A stretch of 64,000 nt of DNA from assembly GCF_947504145.1 (NCBI RefSeq), contig NZ_CANNGQ010000002.1:496001-560000 (forward strand), read 5' to 3'. Positions within the stretch are counted from its first letter, which is position 1; every line of letters begins with the position of its first letter. The DNA comes from an uncultured Microbulbifer sp. (GTDB lineage: Bacteria > Pseudomonadota > Gammaproteobacteria > Pseudomonadales > Cellvibrionaceae). The notes under the pieces are model-generated. The model ran no database searches, was not told the origin of the DNA, and worked only from the letters and a program-made list of their open reading frames with translations. Positions 5,610 through 20,591 of this stretch are shown in pieces. The position numbers and the translations under genes are program-made.

Positions 5610-6773
5610 ATGCGAGATTTCACTTTTTCCACTACCAGAACCGTCGTTTGTGAAGCCGGTGCGGCGTCCCGCCTGGCCGGCCACTGCCGTACTGCCGGTG
5701 CCAGCCGGGTCATGCTGGTGACTGACAATGGCATTCTCAATGCCGGCCTGCTGGATGCGGTACTGCCGGGGTTTGACTGCACCGACCTGCGCCTGGGTAT
5801 CTTCGACCGGGTCGAAGCCGATCCCAAAACGGCAACCGTGGAGGCCGCAGTACACGCTGCACGGGCTCTGGATGCGGAGATGGTTGTGGGGTTCGGCGGC
5901 GGCAGCTCCATGGATGTGGCCAAAGTGGTTGCGGTGCTGGCGCACCCGGATTGCCGTCAGTCACTCGGCGAGCTGTACGGTGTCGGCAACGTGCTCGGCC
6001 CACGCCTGCCCCTGTTACAGGTGCCCACCACCGCCGGTACCGGTTCTGAAGTAACCCCCATCGCCATCGTCACCACCGGCAAAACTACCAAGGTCGGTAT
6101 CGTCTCCCCGCATCTGCAGCCGGATACCGCACTGCTGGATGCGAAGCTTACCCTCGGCCTGCCCACACAGGTCACCGCGGCTACGGGAATCGACGCTATG
6201 GTGCACGCCATCGAGGCTTACACCTCGGCGCACAAAAAGAACCCGGTCTCCGACATGCTGGCCCGCGAGGCCCTGCGTCTGCTCGCCAGCAATATTGCCA
6301 CCGCCACTCACACCGGCAGCGATCTCACGGCGCGGAGCAATATGCTGCTGGGTGCACTGTACGCGGGGCAGGCCTTTGCCAATGCGCCGGTGGCCGCGGT
6401 GCATGCGCTCGCGTATCCACTGGGTGGCCATTTCCACATTCCTCACGGTCTCAGCAATTCCCTGGTGTTGCCCCAGGTACTGCGCTTCAACGCACCCGCC
6501 GCCGCCCCTCTGTACGCAGAGCTGGCTCCGCATATCATGGGCAACGATTACCGCGGCGGCAGTCTGCAACAGGTGACCGAACAACTGACCTGTTGGCTGG
6601 AAAATCTGATTGGAGAGCTCGGCCTGGCCACTCGCCTGCGGGACTGCGGCGTGACGGCAGAAAGTCTGCCGCGACTAGCGGCGGACGCGATGGAGCAGCA
6701 GCGCCTGCTGGTGAATAACCCCCGGGAAGTCGCCGAAGCCGATGCCCTCGCCATTTACCGCGCGATTTTTTGA
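5610..6773 (+). CDS. Iron-containing (group III) alcohol dehydrogenase
   Basis: NAD(P)-dependent interconversion of an alcohol and an aldehyde or ketone; substrate unknown. The 387 aa match the family length. The nucleotide-binding GGGSSMDVAK (about residues 96-105) and PTTAGTGSE (139-147) are present, and the metal ligands are Asp195, His199, His265 and His279, the last in the IPHG motif. The start is ATG at 5610 after an AAAAGGGGG ribosome-binding stretch. It sits between a TetR regulator and a hotdog thioesterase, which suggests a small cassette for aldehyde or short-chain acyl metabolism. Confidence 0.92.
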   Translation: MRDFTFSTTRTVVCEAGAASRLAGHCRTAGASRVMLVTDNGILNAGLLDAVLPGFDCTDLRLGIFDRVEADPKTATVEAAVHAARALDAEMVVGFGGGSSMDVAKVVAVLAHPDCRQSLGELYGVGNVLGPRLPLLQVPTTAGTGSEVTPIAIVTTGKTTKVGIVSPHLQPDTALLDAKLTLGLPTQVTAATGIDAMVHAIEAYTSAHKKNPVSDMLAREALRLLASNIATATHTGSDLTARSNMLLGALYAGQAFANAPVAAVHALAYPLGGHFHIPHGLSNSLVLPQVLRFNAPAAAPLYAELAPHIMGNDYRGGSLQQVTEQLTCWLENLIGELGLATRLRDCGVTAESLPRLAADAMEQQRLLVNNPREVAEADALAIYRAIF

Positions 6774-9485: not shown

Positions 9486-11558
9486 TCAGAAGGCCCGGTC
9501 TACGGTTAGCATGATCCTGGCACCTCGCTGCCGTTCGGTGAGCTCAATGGTATCGGCGATACCACTGCGGTCGTTCTCGTAGAGCCAGCGCTCCCACCTC
9601 TGCTTCTCTCCTCCCAGTTGGTCCGCTTCCAGGCGTAGTTTAAGCGCATCGAAAATGGCCGTTTCTACAAACGCTGCCCAGTAGCCGCGGGTATGTAAAT
9701 AGCTGTATTCATTCACGAAGAATTCTTCGCTCTCCTCACGACTTTGATAGCCGACACCCCATGAGAGACTGTGGCGGGATATGTCTTGACGAAAGTTGGC
9801 GCTATACGAAGGGCCGCTGATGTCTGTCAGTTGGCGAACTTTTCCGGTCACCGGGTCTTCAAACTCGGTGTCGATATAGTTTGCGTTCAACGCTAGCTCT
9901 GCATTCGGAATCAGTGCGGATAGTGGCAGGTTCAGCGTTGTATTCAGGCCGTGGCTGATGGCATCACCGGCATTTCCCAGCGCGGATGCGCCGGAAGGTA
10001 GGATGATGCGTTCCAGGACATCGTGATGCCATTCACGATAGAGCGTTACCGCGAGTGCCCCCTTATCTGAGAACCGATAATCCACACTGGTGGCGGCACG
10101 GTATTTTGAATCTGGTCGCAGGCGAGGGTTTCCGGAAAACTGACGGTCGTTGACCAGATCGGCGCTTGCCGCAAAGTCGCTGAAGTCCAGCTGACCTACA
10201 GATCTACGTAGATCGACTCTGAACTGTGTTGATTCACCGGCTTCATAAGCCATGGCGAGTGACGGCTTTAGAAAAAATAGTGACTGTTGATCTTCGCTGT
10301 CTCCGGTAACCGCCAGCTGTGAATATTCTGCCGCTAGCCCGGAATCTAGCGTAACCCCGGACAGCTGAAAGGTCGCGCTTGAGAAGACCTCGCCACGTTG
10401 TTCCTTGGCTTGAGAATATGTGCCGCCAGCAGTTGCCGGTGTGTTCAGAGCGAGATCTCGACTCGACAAGTCGAGCCAGCTTCGCAGGTGGCTATACGCG
10501 GCCTCTACCCCAAACTCGTAGCGGCTAAGTCGCCCGGGGGAGTCTGGTGTGAAGCTCAACAGCGTGCGCAACACATGCTCACCCTTGCGCTCTTCGAAGG
10601 CTAGATTAGATATGCTTGCGGGGCTGCCTAACGGAATTTGCGTAAGCGAATCTGAGTCTACGGTCCAGTTTTGCGCATTATTGATGGAAAGAATGCGCAA
10701 CTGGAGCTGATCGCTCAGGGGCTGTTGCCATTCGAGCCCCACTTCCCCGGTATAGTAGCGGCTGTCTCGGTCATTGCCGAAATACCGTTGTGAAGCGGTG
10801 CTTAACTGTGGATCCTGGGCTTCTTGTCTGGTGGTTTCCGTAAGGTACTGGCTCCAGCCGATACGCCCGTTAACCAGTAGCTGGTTACCATTGGAAAACT
10901 GTCGTTTTGTGTCTCCGGAAAGAAATATCTCATTGAGTGTACTGGGGCGCTCTTCTTTCTGAAGACCTGTCAGTTCTCGACTGTTTGAATAGGTGCGTAT
11001 CTCTGCCGCACGAGGTTGTCGTTCCTGTGTGGCATTCAGCTTGATTGCACTCTCCCAGTCGCCGAATGTATCTGAAATTCCGAACTCCGCATCCGAAGAC
11101 AGATCCTCGCCCTCGGTGCCACCAATAGACAACGTAAGCCGTTTTGCAGAAGTGGAATCTTTTCGTATGACATTGGCGAGGACCGCTTGTCCGGAAGCGT
11201 CAGACAAACCAGACGCGCCTCGAATGATCTCGATTTTTTCCACCAGCCGCGCAGGAATACGTGATAGCGCCTCCTCGATACCACCGGATTTTGTGGTCGG
11301 GCGCCGGCCATCAATCAGTACGTTGCCGGCACCCGCCACAAACCCTCGGACATCATCGTCGGTTTCTTTCAGGGAGAATCCGGGTAGACGTGAAACCATA
11401 TCCAGCGCTGTCTGCGGTGTGTAGCTGGCAAAATACGCCGGTGAGTAAACCTCGCTTTGCGCATCCGATTGTGTATTCGGCTGGGCCTGAGACGGCGAAT
11501 GGAGTAACAGCGCAATGCTCGCGCCAGCGATCCACAAAGGTAAACATTTCGGTTTCAT
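9486..11558 (-). CDS. TonB-dependent receptor of the metallophore locus, distal gene
   Basis: 690-residue outer-membrane receptor with a Sec signal peptide (cleavage near SQAQ, about residue 26), a plug domain (about 40-140, with the IEIIRG motif) and a 22-strand-type barrel ending in Arg-Ala-Phe. The plug is short and the usual TonB-box sequence is not obvious near the N-terminus. It is the last gene of a five-gene minus-strand unit, 30 bases after the second receptor, so co-transcription is likely. A T-rich tract about 40 bases beyond the stop (9437-9443 on the opposite strand) may end the unit. Ligand unknown; context points to a metal chelate. Confidence 0.9.
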   Translation of the reverse strand: MKPKCLPLWIAGASIALLLHSPSQAQPNTQSDAQSEVYSPAYFASYTPQTALDMVSRLPGFSLKETDDDVRGFVAGAGNVLIDGRRPTTKSGGIEEALSRIPARLVEKIEIIRGASGLSDASGQAVLANVIRKDSTSAKRLTLSIGGTEGEDLSSDAEFGISDTFGDWESAIKLNATQERQPRAAEIRTYSNSRELTGLQKEERPSTLNEIFLSGDTKRQFSNGNQLLVNGRIGWSQYLTETTRQEAQDPQLSTASQRYFGNDRDSRYYTGEVGLEWQQPLSDQLQLRILSINNAQNWTVDSDSLTQIPLGSPASISNLAFEERKGEHVLRTLLSFTPDSPGRLSRYEFGVEAAYSHLRSWLDLSSRDLALNTPATAGGTYSQAKEQRGEVFSSATFQLSGVTLDSGLAAEYSQLAVTGDSEDQQSLFFLKPSLAMAYEAGESTQFRVDLRRSVGQLDFSDFAASADLVNDRQFSGNPRLRPDSKYRAATSVDYRFSDKGALAVTLYREWHHDVLERIILPSGASALGNAGDAISHGLNTTLNLPLSALIPNAELALNANYIDTEFEDPVTGKVRQLTDISGPSYSANFRQDISRHSLSWGVGYQSREESEEFFVNEYSYLHTRGYWAAFVETAIFDALKLRLEADQLGGEKQRWERWLYENDRSGIADTIELTERQRGARIMLTVDRAF

Positions 11559-11588
11559 GTCCGTTTCCCGGTTGCTTAGCGAGTCAGC

Positions 11589-13859
11589 TTAAAATTGATA
11601 GTCCAGAACTATCCTGGCGCTGCGAGGTGCGCCGAGCATTAGCTGGTTGGCATAAATGAAACCGGGGTTGTCCTGGTGCAGGTAGAACAGGTCGGACCAG
11701 GACACATAATCTTCGTCGAAAAGGTTATCGATTCGCGCCGTGATCCGGTAGTTTTCCGCACGATAGGCCGCAAACAGGTTGGTGAAGGTATAGCCTTTCA
11801 GCAATACCGTATTGGGGTTGTCGCCATAGCGGTCGTCGATATAGTGCACCGAGCCGCCGACCTCTAATGGCAGGTCCGCGACGTTATCAACACTGGTGAA
11901 CAGGCTTGCAGTCAGCTCGGGGACGTTGGGTGGTGTATTGCCAGCGAAGGTATCGATGTTGGCAGAGCGCTGGAAGGAAGCATTGGTATAGGCCGCATTG
12001 GCACCTACACGCCAGTCATCACTGAGGGTGAAAGAGGTGGAGACCTCGAGGCCTTCGGATTTTCTTCCGCCCACGTTGGTGACACTATCCAGAGAGAAAC
12101 GCTCATAGATATCGTCTCTCTCAATACGGTAAAGCGCGATGGTTGACTCTGCATTTCCCTCAAGCCAATTGGCTTTCAGACCGATTTCTGCTTGAGCGGC
12201 ATCGGTAAGGTCAAAGTCTTGATTGTTATTTACCAGAAATATATTTGAACTAACCGGATCTTTGGCATTGCTGTACTGGGCGTAGGCCATCACATCTTCG
12301 GAAAAACTATAGACCCCGCCGAGGCGCCAGCTCAACCAATCATAATCCCGTGCGAAGCCATTACTTTCCGGTTCTCCTTCCGCATTGAAGTTCTCCCGGT
12401 TGAGGTCCAGAGCCTCGTGACGGATGCCGGTGACAACACTGAGTTTGTCGGTGAGTTGTAGTGCATTGCCAAAAAATACGGCGTAAGTATCGATATCCGT
12501 TGGGCTGACACCGCGGAGCTCCCGTGGGCCGTAGCTACCTGGCTCTGGGTTCCATGGGTCGATTCCGTCGCCCGTTTCCTGGGCGACGCTTCGACGGAAT
12601 CCTCGGGAGCGAACAAAATCCAGCCTGGTATTTTCAACGCCAAATACAGACCGACTTTCGATACCAGTGAATTCCGAATCGATGTTCAGGGTCAGCCGGC
12701 TTCCCAGAACCTCCTGTTCATGGTCTAGGATAAAATAGCCGTAATAACGTTGCACTTCACCCTGCTGGGTACAGGTGCCCACAACATCGGTGCAGTAGAC
12801 ATAGCCCTCGGCATTCTGCCATGCGCGGTCAGCATCAAACTTAAACAGAGTGTGCTGCAGGCGTGTGCTGTCGTTAATTTTCCACTCGCTGTCCAATCGC
12901 AAGAAAAGCTGGTCTGACTTCGCATAGGCATCGGAAACATTGTAATTATTTGTGCGCATCGCACCGTCAATTACTTCATCGCGGTCTGTACGGATCACAC
13001 CGAGAGGGTCGCGCGCGTCTGCACTAGGAACCAGTGGGGTGCCGTAATAACTGCCGGCATCGTCTTTCAAGTAGTCCGCACTCAGTTTGAAGTTGAGGTT
13101 GTCGCTGGCTTTCCAGAATACGCTGCCGGTCAGGTTGTTTGATTCAGCATTGGTACGATCAATAAAGCCTTCTCTGTCGTAGTGGCTCAAATCCAGGGTG
13201 TACCAGAGATCCTCTTTAATCTCCCCCTGGCTACCAACTCCGATGTGCTGGCTATCAAAGCTCCCGTAGCCTAGCTGCAGGTTAGCGCCCTGATCCATAT
13301 CGGCGGATGCCGATTTGGTGATCGCGTTTACCGTGCCGGCCACGGAGCCGATGCCATTCAATACGGATGCCGGGCCCCGCAGAATTTCTACTCGTTGCAA
13401 GTTGAATGTGTTTTGCGGGCGCATCACCATGGTGCTGGGCCCTATCCACAAGCCGTCGCGCAATACCGTAATCTGGCCGCGGGTAAAGCCGCGCATGGAG
13501 AACGTGGAGGGGGCGGAAGGCTGTTCACCGGTTACAACACCCGGCAGGTTTGCCAGCGAATCCGAAAGTTTGGTGTATCCGCGCGCGCGCATCACTTCCG
13601 CATCAATAACCTCAATGGTAGCGGGCGTCTCCATTGCGGTAAGGCCAAGGCGGTTTGATGTGGTGGAAGTTTCATTCAGGCCGAGGTTTCCTACCGGGCT
13701 TCCGAAAACAACCATGTGCTCGACGGGTTTGCTCTCTGTTTGATCTGATGTTTCGACATTTTCTGTCTTCGCTTCGTCCGCTGCCTGAGCATAACCGGCA
13801 AAGACGATGGATGAGATCAGGACACAATAATGCAGGCGTATTCCAGTATTGATATTCAT
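11589..13859 (-). CDS. TonB-dependent siderophore-type receptor of the metallophore locus
   Basis: 756 residues with a signal peptide (cleavage near AQAAD, about residue 26) and a TonB-siderophore-type plug: LPGVVTGEQPS, FSMRGF and the VEILRGPASVLNGIGSVAG region (about residues 105-185), followed by a barrel ending Leu-Asp-Tyr-Gln-Phe. These plug motifs are typical of receptors for ferric siderophores of the FhuE/FpvA type, but family membership does not fix the metal. Its ATG lies 37 bases after the MFS exporter stop, so it is read from the same promoter as the ligase and exporter. The proposed job is re-import of the metal complex of the locus product. Confidence 0.93.
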   Translation of the reverse strand: MNINTGIRLHYCVLISSIVFAGYAQAADEAKTENVETSDQTESKPVEHMVVFGSPVGNLGLNETSTTSNRLGLTAMETPATIEVIDAEVMRARGYTKLSDSLANLPGVVTGEQPSAPSTFSMRGFTRGQITVLRDGLWIGPSTMVMRPQNTFNLQRVEILRGPASVLNGIGSVAGTVNAITKSASADMDQGANLQLGYGSFDSQHIGVGSQGEIKEDLWYTLDLSHYDREGFIDRTNAESNNLTGSVFWKASDNLNFKLSADYLKDDAGSYYGTPLVPSADARDPLGVIRTDRDEVIDGAMRTNNYNVSDAYAKSDQLFLRLDSEWKINDSTRLQHTLFKFDADRAWQNAEGYVYCTDVVGTCTQQGEVQRYYGYFILDHEQEVLGSRLTLNIDSEFTGIESRSVFGVENTRLDFVRSRGFRRSVAQETGDGIDPWNPEPGSYGPRELRGVSPTDIDTYAVFFGNALQLTDKLSVVTGIRHEALDLNRENFNAEGEPESNGFARDYDWLSWRLGGVYSFSEDVMAYAQYSNAKDPVSSNIFLVNNNQDFDLTDAAQAEIGLKANWLEGNAESTIALYRIERDDIYERFSLDSVTNVGGRKSEGLEVSTSFTLSDDWRVGANAAYTNASFQRSANIDTFAGNTPPNVPELTASLFTSVDNVADLPLEVGGSVHYIDDRYGDNPNTVLLKGYTFTNLFAAYRAENYRITARIDNLFDEDYVSWSDLFYLHQDNPGFIYANQLMLGAPRSARIVLDYQF

Positions 13860-13896
13860 GATGGTGAACCAGTTTGTAGTGAGGGTAGAAATTGCG

Positions 13897-15132
13897 CTAA
13901 GCGCTTGCAGTATTTCCGGGAGGGGGATTTACGGTTAGGTTTTTGCCGACCAGCTTAAACAGCAGGAAGGTGCTAATAAGTCCGATAAAGCAGTAGGTTA
14001 CCCAGGGCAGTGCGGAAAGCTGATACACACGGGCGGTGTCAATCAGCATCCCGCCGAGCCAGCTTCCCAGCCCACCACCAACAGCCAGACCCAAAGAGCT
14101 GAAACCCATATAGCTGCCCAGCGCCTTGTCGTTTGCGAGGTTGGCCGTGATGGTTTGCTGCGTGGGGCGCGTCATCAGAACGCCGAAAGTATAAATAGCC
14201 ACCAAGCCCAAAAATAATGGAAAGCTGGTCGTAAACCCGATAGCACCACAGGTCAGAGACATGATGAGAAGGCCTGTAAGAAAGATCTGTAAGGTGCTGA
14301 ACTTCCGCTCTAGTTTCTTTACCAGGTGGTATTGGGCAACCACCGTTATCGCTGCGCTCATGGTATACATGAACCCAACGCTTTCCTGGTGTGTACTCAA
14401 TTTTTCCGCCCAAAGCGGAAAGCTGAGATTAAACTGCACGGATGTAAACCAGTAGCCCATCATGAACGTGGTAAAAAAGACAAACCGCTTGTCGCTGAAT
14501 ACCAATGCCAAGTTGCTGGCGCTTGAATTTCTATTCGCTTCTGGACGACAAGTAGGGATAAATGCGGCGGCAATCAGGCTGTTGGCCAGAAAACATAGTG
14601 CGGCAACGTAGCAAACGATCTCGAAATTAAATTGCAGGAGCGCTATGCCTAAAAGTGGTCCGAGCGCAGTCGCGATACCGCTGACCCAATTGCTCAGCAA
14701 ATAATAGTGGGCTCGGTCTTTTTCTGTCGTGAGTGCCACAATGCTCGCTTGGTAGGGTGCTTCGAACAGGGCGCCACCTAGAGCCGAGAGTATCATTGCC
14801 AGTATTAGCCCGGCAGGATCCGTAGCTGTGGCCAGGACTGCAAAGCCGGAGGCTCGCACCAATACGCCAACGCAAATCATTGGTTTGATGCCGAACTTAT
14901 CACTCAGCAAGCCTCCGACAATGGTCAACCCCTGTTGAACGACTTGTCTGACCGCCAGTGCGATGCCAACGATCGCCGTCGCCATACCCAAGTTACTGAC
15001 GAAGTGCACCGCCACTAGCGGGATGACCATGCTGAAACCGATCACCATGAAAAAAGTGTACACCAGTAACCAGCGTAAGCTGGATCTGTGCAGGCCCGGT
15101 AAATCGTTGTGGAGCTGGTGGTGTTGTGACAT
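13897..15132 (-). CDS. MFS exporter (MdtH-like) of the metallophore locus
   Basis: 411-residue inner-membrane transporter with 12 predicted hydrophobic segments and the MFS loop 2-3 motif in GGLLSDKFGIKP (about residues 74-85). The overall pattern resembles MdtH-type drug exporters; MFS proteins of this kind export siderophores in other clusters. Its ATG is two bases after the stop of the DUF364-like gene, so the two are tightly coupled. Placement between biosynthetic-type genes and TonB receptors argues for export of the locus product rather than general drug efflux. Confidence 0.88.
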   Translation of the reverse strand: MSQHHQLHNDLPGLHRSSLRWLLVYTFFMVIGFSMVIPLVAVHFVSNLGMATAIVGIALAVRQVVQQGLTIVGGLLSDKFGIKPMICVGVLVRASGFAVLATATDPAGLILAMILSALGGALFEAPYQASIVALTTEKDRAHYYLLSNWVSGIATALGPLLGIALLQFNFEIVCYVAALCFLANSLIAAAFIPTCRPEANRNSSASNLALVFSDKRFVFFTTFMMGYWFTSVQFNLSFPLWAEKLSTHQESVGFMYTMSAAITVVAQYHLVKKLERKFSTLQIFLTGLLIMSLTCGAIGFTTSFPLFLGLVAIYTFGVLMTRPTQQTITANLANDKALGSYMGFSSLGLAVGGGLGSWLGGMLIDTARVYQLSALPWVTYCFIGLISTFLLFKLVGKNLTVNPPPGNTASA

Positions 15133-15134
15133 GT

Positions 15135-15956
15135 CTAATCTGCGCGATACAGATAAATAGAACTCGGCTCCGCACTGAACTGTGAATACGGAAATGGCTC
15201 AGCGCAAACAGCGCTTACGCCCTTGCCCAAAAACTGCGGCACAATGGCACTGCCTGTCTGTGCATAGACTAATAGTGGAATATTTCGTTTTTTAGCAGCT
15301 TGTAGGATTGTGTCAAAAGAGCCATTGGAAAGGGTCATACCTGTCACGATCAGCCGATCGGCGCGGCGTAGGACTGAGTCCATATTCCGTGTGACGTTTA
15401 ACCCTGTGCTGGTGCGTTTCATGTTGAAATCGCAAGGTAGACAGTATGCGCCGCGCTTTTCAATCTCTTCCACAATGGGATTGACGACGCCGATAAGCCC
15501 GACATTCTCACCTGCTTTCACAGTTTGCAGGCTGACTATGGCCTGATCCCGGGCGATTGCCCGCTCGTAGGGTGTGCCTTGCGGCAGTTCTACTCTGGTT
15601 GCCTGTGACTGGTTTCGGTGTGGCTGCAGTAGCGCAAAATAGGCATCGAGCGCGGCGATACGCACCGGCAGTATCGGGCACTCCAGGAGGTTGGCCAGAT
15701 TGACTCCGGCAAGCGACTCTGCATTGATGATATCGAGTTGGTCAGGTTCAACGCAGCACCCTCCAAAGACAGATTCCACTCGCAATAGTAGGTAGAAGTT
15801 TCGATACGTATTGTTTGCGCCGGGAAATTTGGTGAACTGCCGAATGGCAAAGGCACCGGCTACGGAGCACTGATGTGCATCTAGTGCAAATTGCCCTTGT
15901 AGAACCTGGGTGATCAGGCTGTCGACGGGTAGCGCTTCCTGCGATTTGATTGTCAT
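15135..15956 (-). CDS. DUF364-like Rossmann-fold protein (putative heavy-metal chelation family)
   Basis: 273 aa, soluble, no signal peptide. The C-terminal half resembles DUF364: a GENVGLIGVV strand-loop near residue 150, then DRLIVTGMTLSNGSFDTIL (about 200-218), the family's most recognisable stretch. The N-terminal half would correspond to the partner DUF4213-like domain. DUF364 is described as a putative heavy-metal chelation family on structural grounds; no reaction is established. The start ATG is three bases downstream of the ATP-grasp stop. Possible roles are intracellular metal handling, release of metal from the imported chelate, or a missing biosynthetic step. Confidence 0.75.
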   Translation of the reverse strand: MTIKSQEALPVDSLITQVLQGQFALDAHQCSVAGAFAIRQFTKFPGANNTYRNFYLLLRVESVFGGCCVEPDQLDIINAESLAGVNLANLLECPILPVRIAALDAYFALLQPHRNQSQATRVELPQGTPYERAIARDQAIVSLQTVKAGENVGLIGVVNPIVEEIEKRGAYCLPCDFNMKRTSTGLNVTRNMDSVLRRADRLIVTGMTLSNGSFDTILQAAKKRNIPLLVYAQTGSAIVPQFLGKGVSAVCAEPFPYSQFSAEPSSIYLYRAD

Positions 15957-15959
15957 GGC

Positions 15960-17228
15960 TCAGGCTTCCGCTTCTTCCTGAATATCAGGAGTGAGTTGCA
16001 TGATTGCCTGTTCTGCGTAGTCGCGGGCTTTCATACCGCTTTCATCATGTGTGATGACAAAACCGAGATAGCAGGCGTTGTCAATCGGTGGGTAGATGTC
16101 CTGTTGCTGGGCATTCTTTAGCGTCCATCGCTGAACGTTTGCACAAGACTTCAGTTGGTCCTCGCCATTGATCGCGATCAGTTTCCCGCGGGATTGCGGG
16201 ATCAAAAATTTGATGGCCGCACTTCCCTGAATATTCTCCAGGCTGGAGAGATCTGGTTGTCTGTCGAGTGCCAGCTCAATGTGCACGTTGAGCAGGTCAA
16301 TGCCGGTCACCCTTTGGATGAGTTCGACAATGTAGTTGCCCCCGGGGCGGGGGTTGATCTCCACCAGCCTCGGTCCTTTGGATGTCAGTTTTACTTCTGT
16401 ATGACTGATTCCGTGATCATGGCCAACGGCTTCCAGCGCTGCACGCGCAAAATCCACAATCTCACGGAATTTTTCTTCCGGTAAATCTGCCGGAAACATA
16501 TGCCCGTCTTCTATGAAATATGGCAGCCCGGTCAGCGATTTGTCCGTTATTCCCAAGACCGATGTCTTCCCTTGATGAGTAATGGCTTCCACGCTTACCT
16601 CCGCGCCATCCATGTACTCTTCAAGCAGGCAGATGGTATCTCTTGGTTGGTCGCGAAAGTTGTGGGTGAACCCCGTCAGCTTGTCATACGCAGCGCGCAA
16701 TTCATCTTCATTGCGTACCAGCTGTACATAGGCGCTGGATGCCAGGTCGGAGGGTTTGGCGATCAAGGGATAGCCAATGTTGGCAGCCGCTTTCCGTGTG
16801 CTGGACCAGTCAGTGCCGGCAATGAACCTGGGATTGGGCAACCCCGCACGCTCAAGCGCTTCACGAACCAAGTGCTTGCGTCGGATGGTTTTGACATTGG
16901 AGGAAAATGACTGGGGTAATTTCAGAGCGCGGGCGACCTGACACACGGTGTCAACATAGTAGTCACAGATTGTTAATACACCGTCGAACTTCAGCGCCTG
17001 GTGCTGAATGGAGAGAAACTCCATTAGTGAGTCGATATCGTTGGTTTCGGCGGTAAGAATATTTTTCGCATAGAAAAATATTGGATGCATCTTCTCAGAC
17101 GTTTCGTCCAGATAATGGCTGGGGTTGCGGGTGATAAATGTGAATGTGTGACCAAGATCACGAATGGCTTTTGGGAAAAGCCTACCAGTACCCTCAACCC
17201 AGTTCTCAATCAGTAGCAAGTGTGCCAT
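15960..17228 (-). CDS. ATP-grasp carboxylate-amine ligase
   Basis: 422 aa from ATG at 17228 (AAAGGGA nine bases upstream). ATP-grasp enzymes activate a carboxylate as an acyl phosphate and join it to an amine or thiol. Visible landmarks are the pre-ATP-grasp domain (1-115), Lys118 in RKHLVRE, the glycine-poor loop KPSDLASSAYV (158-168), LLEEYMDGAEVSVE (201-214) and the metal-binding HTEVK ... LVEINPRPGG (276-297, with Glu290 and Asn292). It resembles amino-acid ligases and the ATP-grasp protein of vibrioferrin clusters in type, not demonstrably in substrate. First gene of the minus-strand unit, directly next to the Zur-like box. Confidence 0.88.
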   Translation of the reverse strand: MAHLLLIENWVEGTGRLFPKAIRDLGHTFTFITRNPSHYLDETSEKMHPIFFYAKNILTAETNDIDSLMEFLSIQHQALKFDGVLTICDYYVDTVCQVARALKLPQSFSSNVKTIRRKHLVREALERAGLPNPRFIAGTDWSSTRKAAANIGYPLIAKPSDLASSAYVQLVRNEDELRAAYDKLTGFTHNFRDQPRDTICLLEEYMDGAEVSVEAITHQGKTSVLGITDKSLTGLPYFIEDGHMFPADLPEEKFREIVDFARAALEAVGHDHGISHTEVKLTSKGPRLVEINPRPGGNYIVELIQRVTGIDLLNVHIELALDRQPDLSSLENIQGSAAIKFLIPQSRGKLIAINGEDQLKSCANVQRWTLKNAQQQDIYPPIDNACYLGFVITHDESGMKARDYAEQAIMQLTPDIQEEAEA

Positions 17229-17290
17229 GGAAATTCCCTTTGTGAGCTCCCAGAAAAATCCTGTTCTGGTTTTAATCGGCTGTTTAGTTG

Positions 17291-17305
17291 TGTTATACCG
17301 TAACA
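17291..17305. promoter_or_regulatory. Zur-box-like operator between the two divergent units
   Basis: The 15-mer TGTTATACCGTAACA has arms TGTTA and TAACA around a five-base centre. Extended to 17289-17307, it agrees at 14 of 19 positions with the gammaproteobacterial Zur consensus as I remember it (AATGTTATAATATAACATT). It is the only clear palindrome in the 128-base gap between the ATP-grasp start (17228) and the kinase start (17357). Read on the minus strand it contains TATAAC, a possible -10 element, so a bound repressor would block the ligase promoter and probably the kinase promoter. Match by eye only. Confidence 0.6.
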
Positions 17306-17356
17306 TTGAGGGGGCGGAGAGGCAACCCGGAATCGACAAGAAGGAACTTGCGCCAA

Positions 17357-18301
17357 ATGCTGAATGAATACCAGGCCAATTTTAATTCCCGGAATAAATA
17401 TATTTCGGGCGAAGGAGCTCTTGAGGGTCGGAAACCATTTGTTGGAGTTTGCCGTGGGGCGCTCGGAGAATTGTTCCAGGGACCGTCGGTCGACGAATCC
17501 GATGAAATCGTGGTGGTTTCGTCACTGATACCAAAATACAGCTGGGCATATTTCACGCCATGTGACACAGGCTTTAGCAGTTTACAGGACCAGAAATTAT
17601 CGGCGCCAGAGCGGGCAAATTCATTTCACGCGCTGGAGCTATTCTGTCGGGATCATGAGATTACCTGGCCGAGCGGTTACTGGTCCTTTAACAGTGATTT
17701 AGAAGTCGCAAGGGGGATGGCCAGTTCTACAGCAGATATTGTGGCTATCTTGCGTTGCGCTGCGAATTGTATCCAGCACCCACTGGCGGTGGATGAGGTG
17801 ATACGGATTCTGGCAAAAATTGAGCGATCCGATGCCGTATTCTTGAATCAGTTGTCCCTTTTTTGTAGTTCAAATCACAAAATCATTCATCAATTCGATA
17901 AGGTTCCTTCCCTATACGCTCTTTACATGCACGAGGCAGCGACTGTAGACACCAAGGGTACCAAGTCACTTTTGGTCGATTTCTACAAAAGTAACTACTT
18001 CCATTATCGGGACCTTTTTCAAAATGCGGAACTTGCGCTCTCGTCGGCGGACGTTAAAGCCATGTGCGATGTGTCGACAAAAAGCGCTGAGCTCTCGAAT
18101 GAAGTGATTCCGAAACCCCACTTCCAATCAATTTTTTGCGCACAGTCTAATTTTTCAGCGGATGGCGTCATAGTGGCGCATACCGGCTCTGTGGTCGGGC
18201 TTCTTTACTGCCAGCCACCTTGTGTTGATGTGTTTGAAAGAGTGGCAAAGTTTTACCGGGAACTCGGCGGTTACTGCCAGTTTGCAGAGATTCGCGCATG
18301 A
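17357..18301 (+). CDS. GHMP-family kinase, L-threonine kinase (PduX)-like
   Basis: 314 aa from ATG at 17357; the frame extends upstream but through the Zur-like box, so the shorter start is chosen. GHMP motifs: GALGELFQGP (34-43), the phosphate-binding EVARGMASSTADIVA (116-130), IERSDAVF near 155-162, and a C-terminal AHTGSVVGLLY. The ASSTADIVA block and the AATVDTKGT stretch resemble PduX, which phosphorylates L-threonine for cobalamin synthesis. No cobalamin genes are here. Its stop overlaps the start of the PLP enzyme as ATGA. I infer it makes O-phospho-serine or O-phospho-threonine for that enzyme. Confidence 0.8.
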   Translation: MLNEYQANFNSRNKYISGEGALEGRKPFVGVCRGALGELFQGPSVDESDEIVVVSSLIPKYSWAYFTPCDTGFSSLQDQKLSAPERANSFHALELFCRDHEITWPSGYWSFNSDLEVARGMASSTADIVAILRCAANCIQHPLAVDEVIRILAKIERSDAVFLNQLSLFCSSNHKIIHQFDKVPSLYALYMHEAATVDTKGTKSLLVDFYKSNYFHYRDLFQNAELALSSADVKAMCDVSTKSAELSNEVIPKPHFQSIFCAQSNFSADGVIVAHTGSVVGLLYCQPPCVDVFERVAKFYRELGGYCQFAEIRA

Positions 18302-19362
18302 TCCACTCCCATATTTCTGAAGCGATAAAAGAGCCCGATCTGATACACCTGAACGGTAACCTCTACTTTGCCCGTTTTGAGTCCATGAAGGTGTATTCAA
18401 CCCTTGCCGCGGTGGAGTACCTGCTTGAAAGCGGAGTTGTGAAGCGGGGGCAAACACTACTGGACAGCTCAAGTGGGATATACGCTTACGCGCTGGCCTT
18501 GGCCTGCCATAAATACGGATTGAATTGTCATATCGTTGCATCGAAAACTGTTGATCCAGCGCTCAAACTGCAGCTTGAGATTCTTGGCGCGACGGTCGAA
18601 CCCGCTGCTTCCGCTCCCAATCTGAAGATGGATCAAAATAACCGCGTGCGGCGTATACAGGAAATTTTACAGCAGCGTGATGATGTACATTGGATGCAGC
18701 AGTACCACGACAGTATTCATTATCTGGGTTATCGGGAGTTTGCCTGTTTACTGGCGAACAAATTCTCCGAGGAAAAACTTACTCTGGTAGGCGGAGTGGG
18801 GTCGGGTTGCTCGACAGGTGCAACAGCAGGATATTTGCGAGAGATGGGGCGGAAGGTTTCCCTGCACGGCGTGCAGCCATTTGGTAGTGTGACATTCAAC
18901 TCTCAGCATGTAGAAGATCCGGATATTATTATCGCAGGCATTGGTAGTTCAATACCATTCATGAATGTGCGTGCGAGCTCATACGATTATATTCACTGGA
19001 TTTCTTTTGATTACAGCCGGCACGGGTCTATTGAGCTATTGAAAAAGTATGCGGCTTTCTCGGGGCTATCGACGGGCTCCTGTTACACCGTGGCGCAATG
19101 GTGCGCGAACATATTCCCGGATGATGGTCCGTGTATTTTTATTGGTGCTGACTTGGGCTATCGGTATCTGGAGCCGGTTTTTTCAACCTATAAAGGCGCC
19201 GAAGATGTGTCGAATTTTCAGCCAAGGGTAATCGAGTCGACAAATGATCTTTCTCTGGACTGGTGCATCATGGACTGGCGGCGTCACGGTGTTTATTGCG
19301 ATCAGGACTCAGGCTCTGGTGCTATAAGAAGAGATCGAACAGCCGACTTGGCGGAGGTATAA
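18298..19362 (+). CDS. PLP-dependent enzyme of the cysteine-synthase fold (SbnA/CysK-like)
   Basis: 354 aa, fold-type II PLP enzyme catalysing beta-replacement or elimination. Lys31 (FESMKVYS) is the likely Schiff-base lysine, and VGSGCSTGATAG (167-178) the cofactor phosphate loop. The substrate carboxylate loop, normally TSGNTG, reads SSSGIYAY (57-64), so the Asn-Thr pair is lost. A C-terminal GADLGYRYL matches the CysK segment before the last strand. SbnA uses O-phosphoserine and glutamate to start diaminopropionate synthesis; the adjacent coupled kinase could supply a phospho-amino acid here. No SbnB-type dehydrogenase follows. Some divergence means that a non-cysteine product is likely. 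Confidence 0.82.
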   Translation: MIHSHISEAIKEPDLIHLNGNLYFARFESMKVYSTLAAVEYLLESGVVKRGQTLLDSSSGIYAYALALACHKYGLNCHIVASKTVDPALKLQLEILGATVEPAASAPNLKMDQNNRVRRIQEILQQRDDVHWMQQYHDSIHYLGYREFACLLANKFSEEKLTLVGGVGSGCSTGATAGYLREMGRKVSLHGVQPFGSVTFNSQHVEDPDIIIAGIGSSIPFMNVRASSYDYIHWISFDYSRHGSIELLKKYAAFSGLSTGSCYTVAQWCANIFPDDGPCIFIGADLGYRYLEPVFSTYKGAEDVSNFQPRVIESTNDLSLDWCIMDWRRHGVYCDQDSGSGAIRRDRTADLAEV

Positions 19363-19364
19363 CA

Positions 19365-20591
19365 ATGTCTGAACAGATACAATCTACAAAAGACCGGGTG
19401 ATTTTGCTCGACGCAATGCGTGGCTTTGCATTGTGCGGGATCATTTTTGCTAACCTGGTGAGCTTCACAGGGTTTTATTCTTTGAGTCTGTCTCAGATTC
19501 AGGCGTTGCTCGGGATTGATCGAGCAATTCTATTCGCCATTGATTTTTTTGTGGAAGGGAAGTTTTACAGCATTTTTGCGATGTTACTTGGTGCCGGTTG
19601 CTGGTTGCAGTACTCAAGATTTCAGCAGCATCAGCGAGGGTTTTCTGTATTCTGGCTGCGACGCATGCTGATTCTGTTTGTACTCGGGATATCGCATATG
19701 TACCTGATATGGCATGGCGATATTCTGACGTTGTACAGTCTTCTTGGTGTCTGTCTTCTGCTGTTTCTCCGGGTTGAGAATCGCCTGCTCATGCCCTGCA
19801 TTCTGGCGCTTCTCACTTTCCCTTTACTTATTCACGTTGTTTTGGCCGTTTCATATACGCATCCCTTTTGGGGCGCGCTGAACTCGGCGGCGGATTCCCT
19901 CAGGCAATGGTTGGGGTATCAGGGGGTAAGTCTATTGGTGCTGCGGGCAGGTGGTGGTGCCGAGGAGGTTTTTTGGGGGAACGTATTGAGTGCGATACCC
20001 CGCGCCATGTCGTATTTGAAGACCGGGCGCCCTTTTCAGGTGCTGGGGCAGTTTTTACTGGGTGTCTATCTGGTGCGTATTTACCTGCAAGGGAATGCAT
20101 CCATTCCCAGTTGGCGCAGTGTCTTCAGCCTGCTGTGCCTGGGGGCGCTATTGAATCTGGGTTATGCGTATATCAAGTATGAAACAGGTAGCCCGTTTTC
20201 CGTGAGCGCTCTCGGGTTGGTTCAGGGTGTGATTTATCACTTGGGGTGCATCGTTCTGGCGTTGGGGTATATGGCGCTGTTCTACCGTTTATGGCACGCA
20301 GGCGCCGGATTCAGAAATTTGGCGAGAATGGGGCGGATGGCTTTGACGATGTATTTGATGCAAAGCATTTTATGTGTGCTGCTTTTTTATGCCTATGGAT
20401 TGGGGTTGATGGGGCGGGTGCCCTTTTATTCGATCGTCGTATTTGGCTCCGGGATTTTACTGATCCAGTTTCTGTTCGCGCGATTCTGGCTGGGCAGGTT
20501 TCAGTTCGGGCCGGTTGAGTATTTGTGGCGTCGCTTGAGCTATTCTGGTGAGCCGAGACCAAGCACCAAGCCCCGATCCGGTATCGCATAA
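19365..20591 (+). CDS. DUF418 family membrane protein
   Basis: 408 aa from ATG at 19365, with GGAGGT eight bases upstream and two bases after the PLP-enzyme stop. About ten hydrophobic segments. The N-terminal LDAMRGFALCGIIFANLV (about residues 14-31) and WHGDILTLYSLLG are the hallmarks of DUF418, a family distantly related to membrane acyltransferases. No catalytic activity is established. As the last gene of the kinase-PLP unit it could modify or move the product, or simply be an envelope protein; it is followed by a strong terminator. Confidence 0.85.
   Translation: MSEQIQSTKDRVILLDAMRGFALCGIIFANLVSFTGFYSLSLSQIQALLGIDRAILFAIDFFVEGKFYSIFAMLLGAGCWLQYSRFQQHQRGFSVFWLRRMLILFVLGISHMYLIWHGDILTLYSLLGVCLLLFLRVENRLLMPCILALLTFPLLIHVVLAVSYTHPFWGALNSAADSLRQWLGYQGVSLLVLRAGGGAEEVFWGNVLSAIPRAMSYLKTGRPFQVLGQFLLGVYLVRIYLQGNASIPSWRSVFSLLCLGALLNLGYAYIKYETGSPFSVSALGLVQGVIYHLGCIVLALGYMALFYRLWHAGAGFRNLARMGRMALTMYLMQSILCVLLFYAYGLGLMGRVPFYSIVVFGSGILLIQFLFARFWLGRFQFGPVEYLWRRLSYSGEPRPSTKPRSGIA

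Follow-up and report, generated by a model that had tools for sequence, protein, structure and literature searches.

A DUF364-Containing Eight-Gene Cassette of Microbulbifer sp. as a Likely Zur-Controlled Zincophore System

Introduction

A cassette of eight reading frames in a 64-kb stretch of Microbulbifer sp. DNA (NZ_CANNGQ010000002.1, from a genome of 4.36 Mb; this stretch is called the window below) raises the question of whether its genes make, export and recover a metal chelator and, if so, which metal is concerned. The frames form two packs that diverge from a 128-bp spacer. One pack encodes an ATP-grasp ligase, a DUF364 protein, a major facilitator superfamily (MFS) transporter and two TonB-dependent receptors (TBDR1 and TBDR2), and the other encodes a kinase, a pyridoxal-phosphate (PLP) enzyme and a DUF418 membrane protein. 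The initial annotation had described these eight genes in this arrangement, and all frames were indeed present and intact. It had also read them as a set for metallophore synthesis, export and uptake. Co-conserved PLP, DUF364, MFS and uptake genes, together with zinc-type boxes, bear this out. As judged from sequence, the cassette is, with a probability of roughly 0.74, a metallophore system with zinc as its main metal, likely a zincophore system controlled by the zinc regulator Zur.

Results and Discussion

Conservation of the Gene Set

A DUF364 scan of genome contigs gave at least 554 relatives, which come from one species-level genome set. The conservation counts refer to the best 80 of these, i.e., the most similar ones, and the gene profiles for the 80 loci (designated by L numbers) were built on the window together with the plasmid loci L008, L009 and L011; L038 was added as a seed afterwards. 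The PLP enzyme was found in 77 of the 80 loci and the MFS gene in 78. The PLP-less loci were L035, L073 and L082, and L035 and L073 are short stretches. The kinase was found in 54 loci. The ATP-grasp ligase, which had been placed at the centre of the system, is present in the window but was seen in only 25 of the related loci. An uptake system was observed in 68 loci, namely a TonB receptor in 21, a FecCD-type ATP-binding cassette (ABC) importer in 33 and a nickel/peptide-type ABC importer in 14. TonB receptors occurred in Gram-negative loci; the Gram-positive ones had ABC importers of the iron-siderophore or the nickel/peptide type.

Exilibacterium (L013) and Aliikangiella (L025) shared the full set of eight genes and its order with the window, and L014 carried seven, its contig ending within a receptor. 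A DUF364 protein search of 72,556 plasmids gave nine records, all actinobacterial by name, and in each of the five plasmid loci inspected, DUF364 had PLP, MFS and ABC importer genes nearby. The PLP enzyme, DUF364 and the MFS gene were thus kept together across phyla, and the proposal that the genes would be co-conserved elsewhere withstood this check. Its recurrence in many genomes shows that the gene set reflects more than chance.

Probable Zinc Control in Actinobacterial Loci

The Zur motif of Streptomyces coelicolor is given in PMC5472717 as TGANNATSATNNTCA. We scanned the 54 actinobacterial loci among the best 80, with genus labels as in the record names; loci of the same genus are not independent of each other. 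In 32 of the 54 loci, a motif match of at least 10/11 was observed in the regions upstream of the cassette genes. The motif density was 0.76 per kb in cassette-upstream sequence and 0.013 per kb elsewhere in the same loci, and 100 permuted palindromes used as a control gave a mean of 0.03 loci and a maximum of 1. By a 400-nt rule, a Zur box lay upstream in 34 of the 54 loci, covering 8 of 13 genus labels; in L071, one of the 34, the box precedes an ABC gene whose membership in the cassette is doubtful. An iron-box (IdeR) consensus gave 0 sites upstream of cassette genes and 6 elsewhere in the 54 loci. Nickel (Nur) control was also considered and was rejected, as the Nur motif had no consistent position.

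These boxes bear on a different reading of the cassette, in which it makes and expels an antibiotic or antimetabolite of the amino-acid type, with no more than an incidental link to the receptors and the zinc control. The ATP-grasp ligase is closest to dipeptide-making ligases, including BacD, and the same kinase and PLP families occur in non-ribosomal peptide synthetase (NRPS) clusters (L135, L149), as such a reading would have it. It is hard to reconcile with the uptake systems beside the cassette in 68 of the 80 loci and with the promoter Zur boxes in many of them. Furthermore, the Streptomyces plasmid loci L131-L135, which have this PLP family without DUF364, showed no strong Zur box at the module start; L135 does have two 10/11 matches, which fall within coding frames or at their border. 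We therefore consider an antimetabolite very unlikely.

Probable Zinc Control in the Window and Its Gammaproteobacterial Relatives

The gammaproteobacterial Zur box is reported as AATGTTATANTATAACATT (PMC2706843; similar in PMC3516566). In the whole window, TGTTATACCGTAACA was the only match of at least 11/14 to this box, and it sits in the divergent spacer. The Microbulbifer genome contains 2 sites with up to 2 mismatches, of which the spacer site is one. The chance of such a site in a given 128-bp spacer is about 6/100,000, by after-the-fact arithmetic. The window box (12/14) is the weaker case, and the L013 spacer matched at 13/14. The genome also carries a Zur-like gene (L145) that is 43% identical to its Aliikangiella counterpart, and a search of the same genome for ZigA gave no match.

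In Exilibacterium (7.2 Mb), 7 sites had up to 2 mismatches. They include the zur/znuA spacer and the cassette spacer, which carry the same box type, and further boxes just before a DUF418 gene and 23 bp before a TonB receptor. The remaining three lie inside frames, one of which is doubtful. The DUF418 gene with this Zur-type box (L122 136-1482, site 1501) is a second one, outside the cassette, and its box suggests a place in zinc starvation for some DUF418 proteins.

In Aliikangiella, the last cassette receptor is directly followed by a box and then by a ZigA gene (NF038288, 693.6 bits, cut-off 600). After ZigA come DUF1826, ZrgA (PF10986, over cut-off), a regulator and MerC; the best NCBIfam match of the regulator was Zur, at 86.3 bits and under the cut-off of 167. 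A ZigA-type GTPase, which we take to be a COG0523 member, was also observed in L058 and L071, with weaker CobW-type matches in L059 and L085. COG0523 GTPases are among the Zur-regulated genes listed in PMC6103462. Because of the Zur boxes and the zinc-gene neighbours, the metal of the cassette is probably zinc, which narrows the earlier metallophore reading to a likely zincophore.

Several observations weigh against this reading. The window palindrome was spotted by eye before the scan with the published box. Among 27 sequences scanned, the gamma box lay at the cassette spacer only in the window, L013, L014 and L025, and L014 and L025 had matches elsewhere too; in the other 23 sequences, it was seen only in Vibrio L046, away from the cassette start. 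The Herpetosiphon and Acidobacteria loci showed no clear box, and the Lysobacter operons extend past the upstream end of the stretches compared. The motif gave 20 sites with up to 3 mismatches in the Microbulbifer genome versus 44 for the reversed control, and with up to 2 mismatches 7 versus 16 in Exilibacterium and 18 versus 78 in Aliikangiella. Being below their reversed controls, these genome-wide counts were rejected as evidence. The znuA spacer of the Microbulbifer genome matched the gamma box at only 10/14. By the 400-nt rule, 20 of the 54 actinobacterial loci, both Amycolatopsis loci included, had no strong box, and a 10/11 box lay upstream in only 2 (L009, L011) of the 5 plasmid loci, L008-L012, which were counted separately from the 54. 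Among the best 80, the kinase was not seen in 26 loci and the ATP-grasp ligase in 55. Finally, a Fur-like operator precedes the kinase and was conserved in all 5 Massilia loci aligned.

As a side observation, the znuA spacer of the Microbulbifer genome (L110 ~2187-2207) holds a palindrome, GGGTGCGATATAATCACACCC, that differs from the usual gamma Zur box.

The Massilia Operator and Iron

The Massilia operator leads to the possibility that the cassette is a metallophore whose chief metal is iron, or else nickel, cobalt or copper, and that only some lineages place it under zinc control. In L021, the operator (AATGATAATCAATTATCGTT, 6674-6693) and a weaker copy (2527-2546) occupy both cassette promoter spacers, the weaker one being in the receptor/ABC spacer; with a rough pattern, the second copy was not found in the other four Massilia loci. 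The FecCD-type importers, a nickel-binding-protein-like substrate-binding protein in L038 and the siderophore type of the larger receptor in the window also fit a metal other than zinc. Against this stand the Zur boxes and zinc-gene neighbours, and the IdeR counts given above. In addition, when up to 3 mismatches were allowed, the operator had 3 sites in the L021 genome (7.6 Mb), and the two in the cassette are among these; the reversed control gave 2 and 1. A general iron regulator would be expected to have more sites. An iron-centred system is hence rather improbable, and we retain zinc as the probable main metal.

PLP Enzyme, Kinase and ATP-Grasp Ligase

The nearest solved structure to the PLP enzyme was SbnA (E 1.1e-47), followed by CmnB. 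Against the SbnA family TIGR03945 it scored 110.9 bits, which was its best NCBIfam match yet under the cut-off of 349.95. By these scores, the enzyme is a relative of SbnA and not an SbnA. Of 83 sequences, at least 95% retain the residues aligned with the Schiff-base lysine and with SbnA Arg132 and Tyr152, with SbnA positions counted on the printed alignment and L001-L007 left out of the conservation columns. Arg132 and Tyr152 are presumably O-phosphoserine contacts. The SbnA Ser185 position was Gly in the cassette enzyme.

The kinase model had a GHMP fold (predicted local distance difference test, pLDDT, 90.8). Among 299 genomes of the phylum, only two other kinase matches were observed (L005, L006), and the frames beside them are, we assume, the cobalamin genes CobD and CobB/CbiA. 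The kinase had been called PduX-like, PduX being a threonine kinase. Support for this label is indirect, as it comes only from the presumed cobalamin genes that adjoin the non-cassette relatives. A plain PduX/cobalamin role was rejected, because the cassette kinase occurs with the SbnA-like enzyme in 54 of the 80 loci and those of L005 and L006 do not. More broadly, the genes could belong to some other process, for instance cobalamin or amino-acid metabolism; the cobalamin-type neighbours of the only other kinase relatives in the 299 genomes would speak for this. Those relatives have neither PLP nor DUF364 nearby, whereas the cassette kinase has both, and exporter and importer genes remain with the cassette in the best 80. 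We find an unrelated task hardly credible.

A PhyH-type oxygenase was present in 9 of the 26 kinase-less loci and in 0 of the 54 kinase-bearing ones. An example is found in L038 (8868-9962), near PLP and DUF364.

For the ATP-grasp protein, the nearest structure was an L-amino-acid ligase (E 1.4e-46), and the protein was also close to the ATP-grasp part of the argininosuccinate-lyase fusion PRK02186. Vibrio intestinalis (L046 7659-13091) has PLP, ATP-grasp, DUF364 and MFS genes and no kinase; the next frame there encodes 349 aa with no Pfam match at 0.01.

DUF364 and the Argininosuccinate-Lyase Modules

The DUF364 model had a pLDDT of 94.3, and its nearest solved folds were 3npg and 3l5o, with a Foldseek TM score of 0.59-0.63 for 3l5o. 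The protein passes the curated PF04016 cut-off and has the same two-domain fold, with 12-15% identity in the structural alignment to 3l5o/3npg. Unlike these two, the cassette DUF364 is of a subfamily whose genes keep company with that of the SbnA-like enzyme. Heavy-metal chelation was proposed for the 3l5o/3npg fold from genome context in 2010 (PMC2954201).

Related modules were observed without DUF364. The order kinase, PLP, ATP-grasp and argininosuccinate lyase occurs in Sulfuriferula (L148) and in Streptomyces ITFR-16 (L149), and S. globosus (L135) has the lyase, the kinase and a fused PLP-ATP-grasp protein. The kinase, PLP and ATP-grasp proteins of L148 and L149 are homologous to those of the cassette, and the gene order in L148 and L149 is alike; the difference is that the L135, L148 and L149 modules have argininosuccinate lyase and the cassette has DUF364. 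No DUF364 was found in the nine loci of DUF364-less modules searched (L131-L136, L147-L149), and no argininosuccinate-lyase-like frame in 93 sequences (the window and L001-L092). The cassette thus lacks the lyase that a supply module for 2,4-diaminobutyrate (Dab) or 2,3-diaminopropionate (Dap) has beside its kinase and PLP genes; the friulimicin Dab genes are presumably a module of the kinase-PLP-argininosuccinate-lyase type. We infer that DUF364 stands where the related modules have argininosuccinate lyase, and therefore carboxylate arms would stay on the product.

Two further clusters were seen among these modules. The Sulfuriferula nivalis plasmid (L148 7003-16984) carries kinase, PLP, two ATP-grasp, argH, MFS, PhzF-like and other genes in one run, which looks like an undescribed cluster. 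On the Streptomyces clavifer plasmid (L132 2220-13251), kinase, PLP, ATP-grasp, MFS and methyltransferase genes form a DUF364-less set close to metE and to a ferric-reductase-like gene; this set is possibly a sister system.

Proposed Pathway

In the proposed pathway, the GHMP kinase would form O-phospho-L-serine or O-phospho-L-threonine. The SbnA-like PLP enzyme would then exchange the phosphate for the amino group of another amino acid, which is most likely aspartate, to yield an amino-polycarboxylate, and the ATP-grasp ligase would couple one more amino acid to it as an amide. DUF364 may complete the scaffold in place of the lyase, with the carboxylates retained as metal ligands. The small zinc chelator would be exported by the MFS transporter and its loaded form re-imported by the TonB receptors, or by FecCD-type or nickel/peptide-type ABC systems in Gram-positive loci, the whole cassette presumably being under Zur control. 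From our analysis, the chances that the order and chemistry of the enzyme steps are right are about even. The wider claim of a cross-phylum zincophore pathway, with DUF364 in the lyase's place as its hallmark and a new amino-polycarboxylate zinc chelator as its product, could equally well be right or wrong in our estimation.

Origin of the Cassette

The window and Exilibacterium formed a pair in the DUF364 tree (support 96/97). Their group (100/100) comprised 27 rows: the window, 22 Pseudomonadota, 2 Chloroflexota, 1 Acidobacteriota and 1 labelled Bacillota. The DUF364 subfamily was rare in the class of the window, occurring in 1 of 369 genomes, the Microbulbifer genome itself. At E 1e-20, the PLP enzyme was not found in 57 other genomes, 36 of them of the same genus. 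The G+C content was 51.7% in the cassette and 57.8% in the rest of the window. Owing to this low G+C and the missing PLP enzyme in the 57 genomes, the cassette looks acquired.

In the record named Bacillus sp. 2B10 (L034), the cassette is nearly identical to that of a Sphingomonas metagenome-assembled genome (L032), and the name or assembly of L034 is doubtful for this reason.

Gene Layout

The features are collected in Table 1. In the minus pack, gaps of 3 bp (ATP-grasp/DUF364), 2 bp (DUF364/MFS), 37 bp (MFS/receptor) and 30 bp (receptor/receptor) were observed. In the plus pack, the kinase and PLP frames overlap by 4 bp, and the PLP/DUF418 gap is 2 bp with ATG 19365 as the start. The gene set of the initial annotation held and two of its starts were corrected: that of the ATP-grasp gene is most likely the ATG ending at 17228 and that of the kinase the ATG at 17357, which together define the 128-bp spacer. 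A TTG start at 17339, giving a longer ATP-grasp frame, was rejected because the orthologues align from the ATG ending at 17228. The flanking frames, presumably Tex-like and pseudouridine-synthase-like, are ordinary in look. The Rfam scan of the window gave 0 matches.

Table 1. Features of the cassette, in window coordinates.
Feature	Coordinates	Strand	Basis
TBDR1, TonB-dependent receptor (Pfam: Plug domain only)	9486..11558	-	orthologues after TBDR2 in L013 and L025
TBDR2, siderophore-type TonB-dependent receptor	11589..13859	-	TIGR01783 256.7 bits, cut-off 223.5
MFS transporter, presumed exporter	13897..15132	-	family match; MFS gene in 78/80 related loci
DUF364 protein, enolase-N-like and Rossmann-like fold	15135..15956	-	PF04016 40.9 bits, cut-off 23
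ATP-grasp ligase, L-amino-acid-ligase type, with LAL_C2	15960..17228	-	family and structure-database matches
Divergent promoter spacer, 128 bp	17229..17356	no strand	
Zur-box-like palindrome TGTTATACCGTAACA	17291..17305	no strand	12/14 to TGTTATANTATAACA
GHMP-fold kinase, PduX-like	17357..18301	+	PF00288 35 bits, cut-off 22.3; GHMP folds in PDB
SbnA-like PLP enzyme (PALP)	18298..19362	+	best PDB match SbnA
DUF418 (YeiB-like) membrane protein	19365..20591	+	orthologues in L013, L014 and L025

Significance and Comparison with Known Metallophore Systems

If the zincophore reading is true, it would give a function to DUF364, whose link to metal chelation has stood as a proposal since 2010 (PMC2954201), and a zinc-acquisition route to hundreds of genomes. 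Having at least 554 relatives in a single species-level set, the system would then rank with the more common zincophore systems of the non-NRPS kind. New amino-polycarboxylates may also attract practical interest, since such chelators are possibly degradable, by analogy with ethylenediaminedisuccinate (EDDS). We found no published DUF364 metallophore cassette in literature that covered few subscription papers and no preprints.

When the eight proteins were scanned for family matches, none was found to an NRPS module, to an NRPS-independent siderophore (NIS) synthetase of the IucA/IucC type, to an opine dehydrogenase or to a nicotianamine synthase, and the absence of the first three had been stated by the initial annotation. 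Staphyloferrin B (sbn) is the closest system by its PLP enzyme, since SbnA is nearest to the cassette enzyme and the Arg132 and Tyr152 positions are shared. There, the kinase SbnI feeds SbnA, and the cassette kinase offers a parallel. The cassette differs from sbn in having no SbnB-like or NIS synthetase match among its eight proteins, and in the Gly at the Ser185 position. The opine zincophores (staphylopine and pseudopaline; cnt) are alike in an exported chelator, return through TonB or ABC systems and zinc control. The cassette is unlike them in that its eight proteins match neither of their enzymes, opine dehydrogenase and nicotianamine synthase.

EDDS is not known to contain an amide or methyl group, and O-phosphoserine is its precursor. 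EDDS and EDHA are known amino-polycarboxylate metallophores (PMC4993170, PMC9252823, PMC8914351, PMC10702961), and antiSMASH 7 includes a rule for this class (PMC10320115). EDDS is described as Zur-controlled and made by neither a typical NRPS nor a NIS route (PMC9252823, PMC4993170). EDHA is described as iron-responsive, and reports of it come from Corynebacterium, Nocardia, Streptomyces and Burkholderia (PMC10702961), whereas we read the cassette as a zinc system. The likeness of the cassette to [S,S]-EDDS (aes, Amycolatopsis japonicum) and EDHA, as non-NRPS, non-NIS and, for EDDS, Zur-controlled, is by description only.

The cassette might even be the EDDS or EDHA (aes) pathway itself under other gene names. 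The control and route of EDDS, its O-phosphoserine precursor and the presence of the cassette in two Amycolatopsis genomes (L054, L083) are in keeping with such an identity. However, both Amycolatopsis cassettes are without a strong Zur box, and of the reported EDHA genera only Streptomyces occurs among the best 80 of the at least 554 loci and the nine plasmid records. The proposed amide also fits poorly with the structure of EDDS, and we regard the identity as unlikely. The zincophore reading of the cassette places it in a kind that is already known, the amino-polycarboxylate metallophores, of which the DUF364 cassette appears to be a variant whose genes may overlap with aes.

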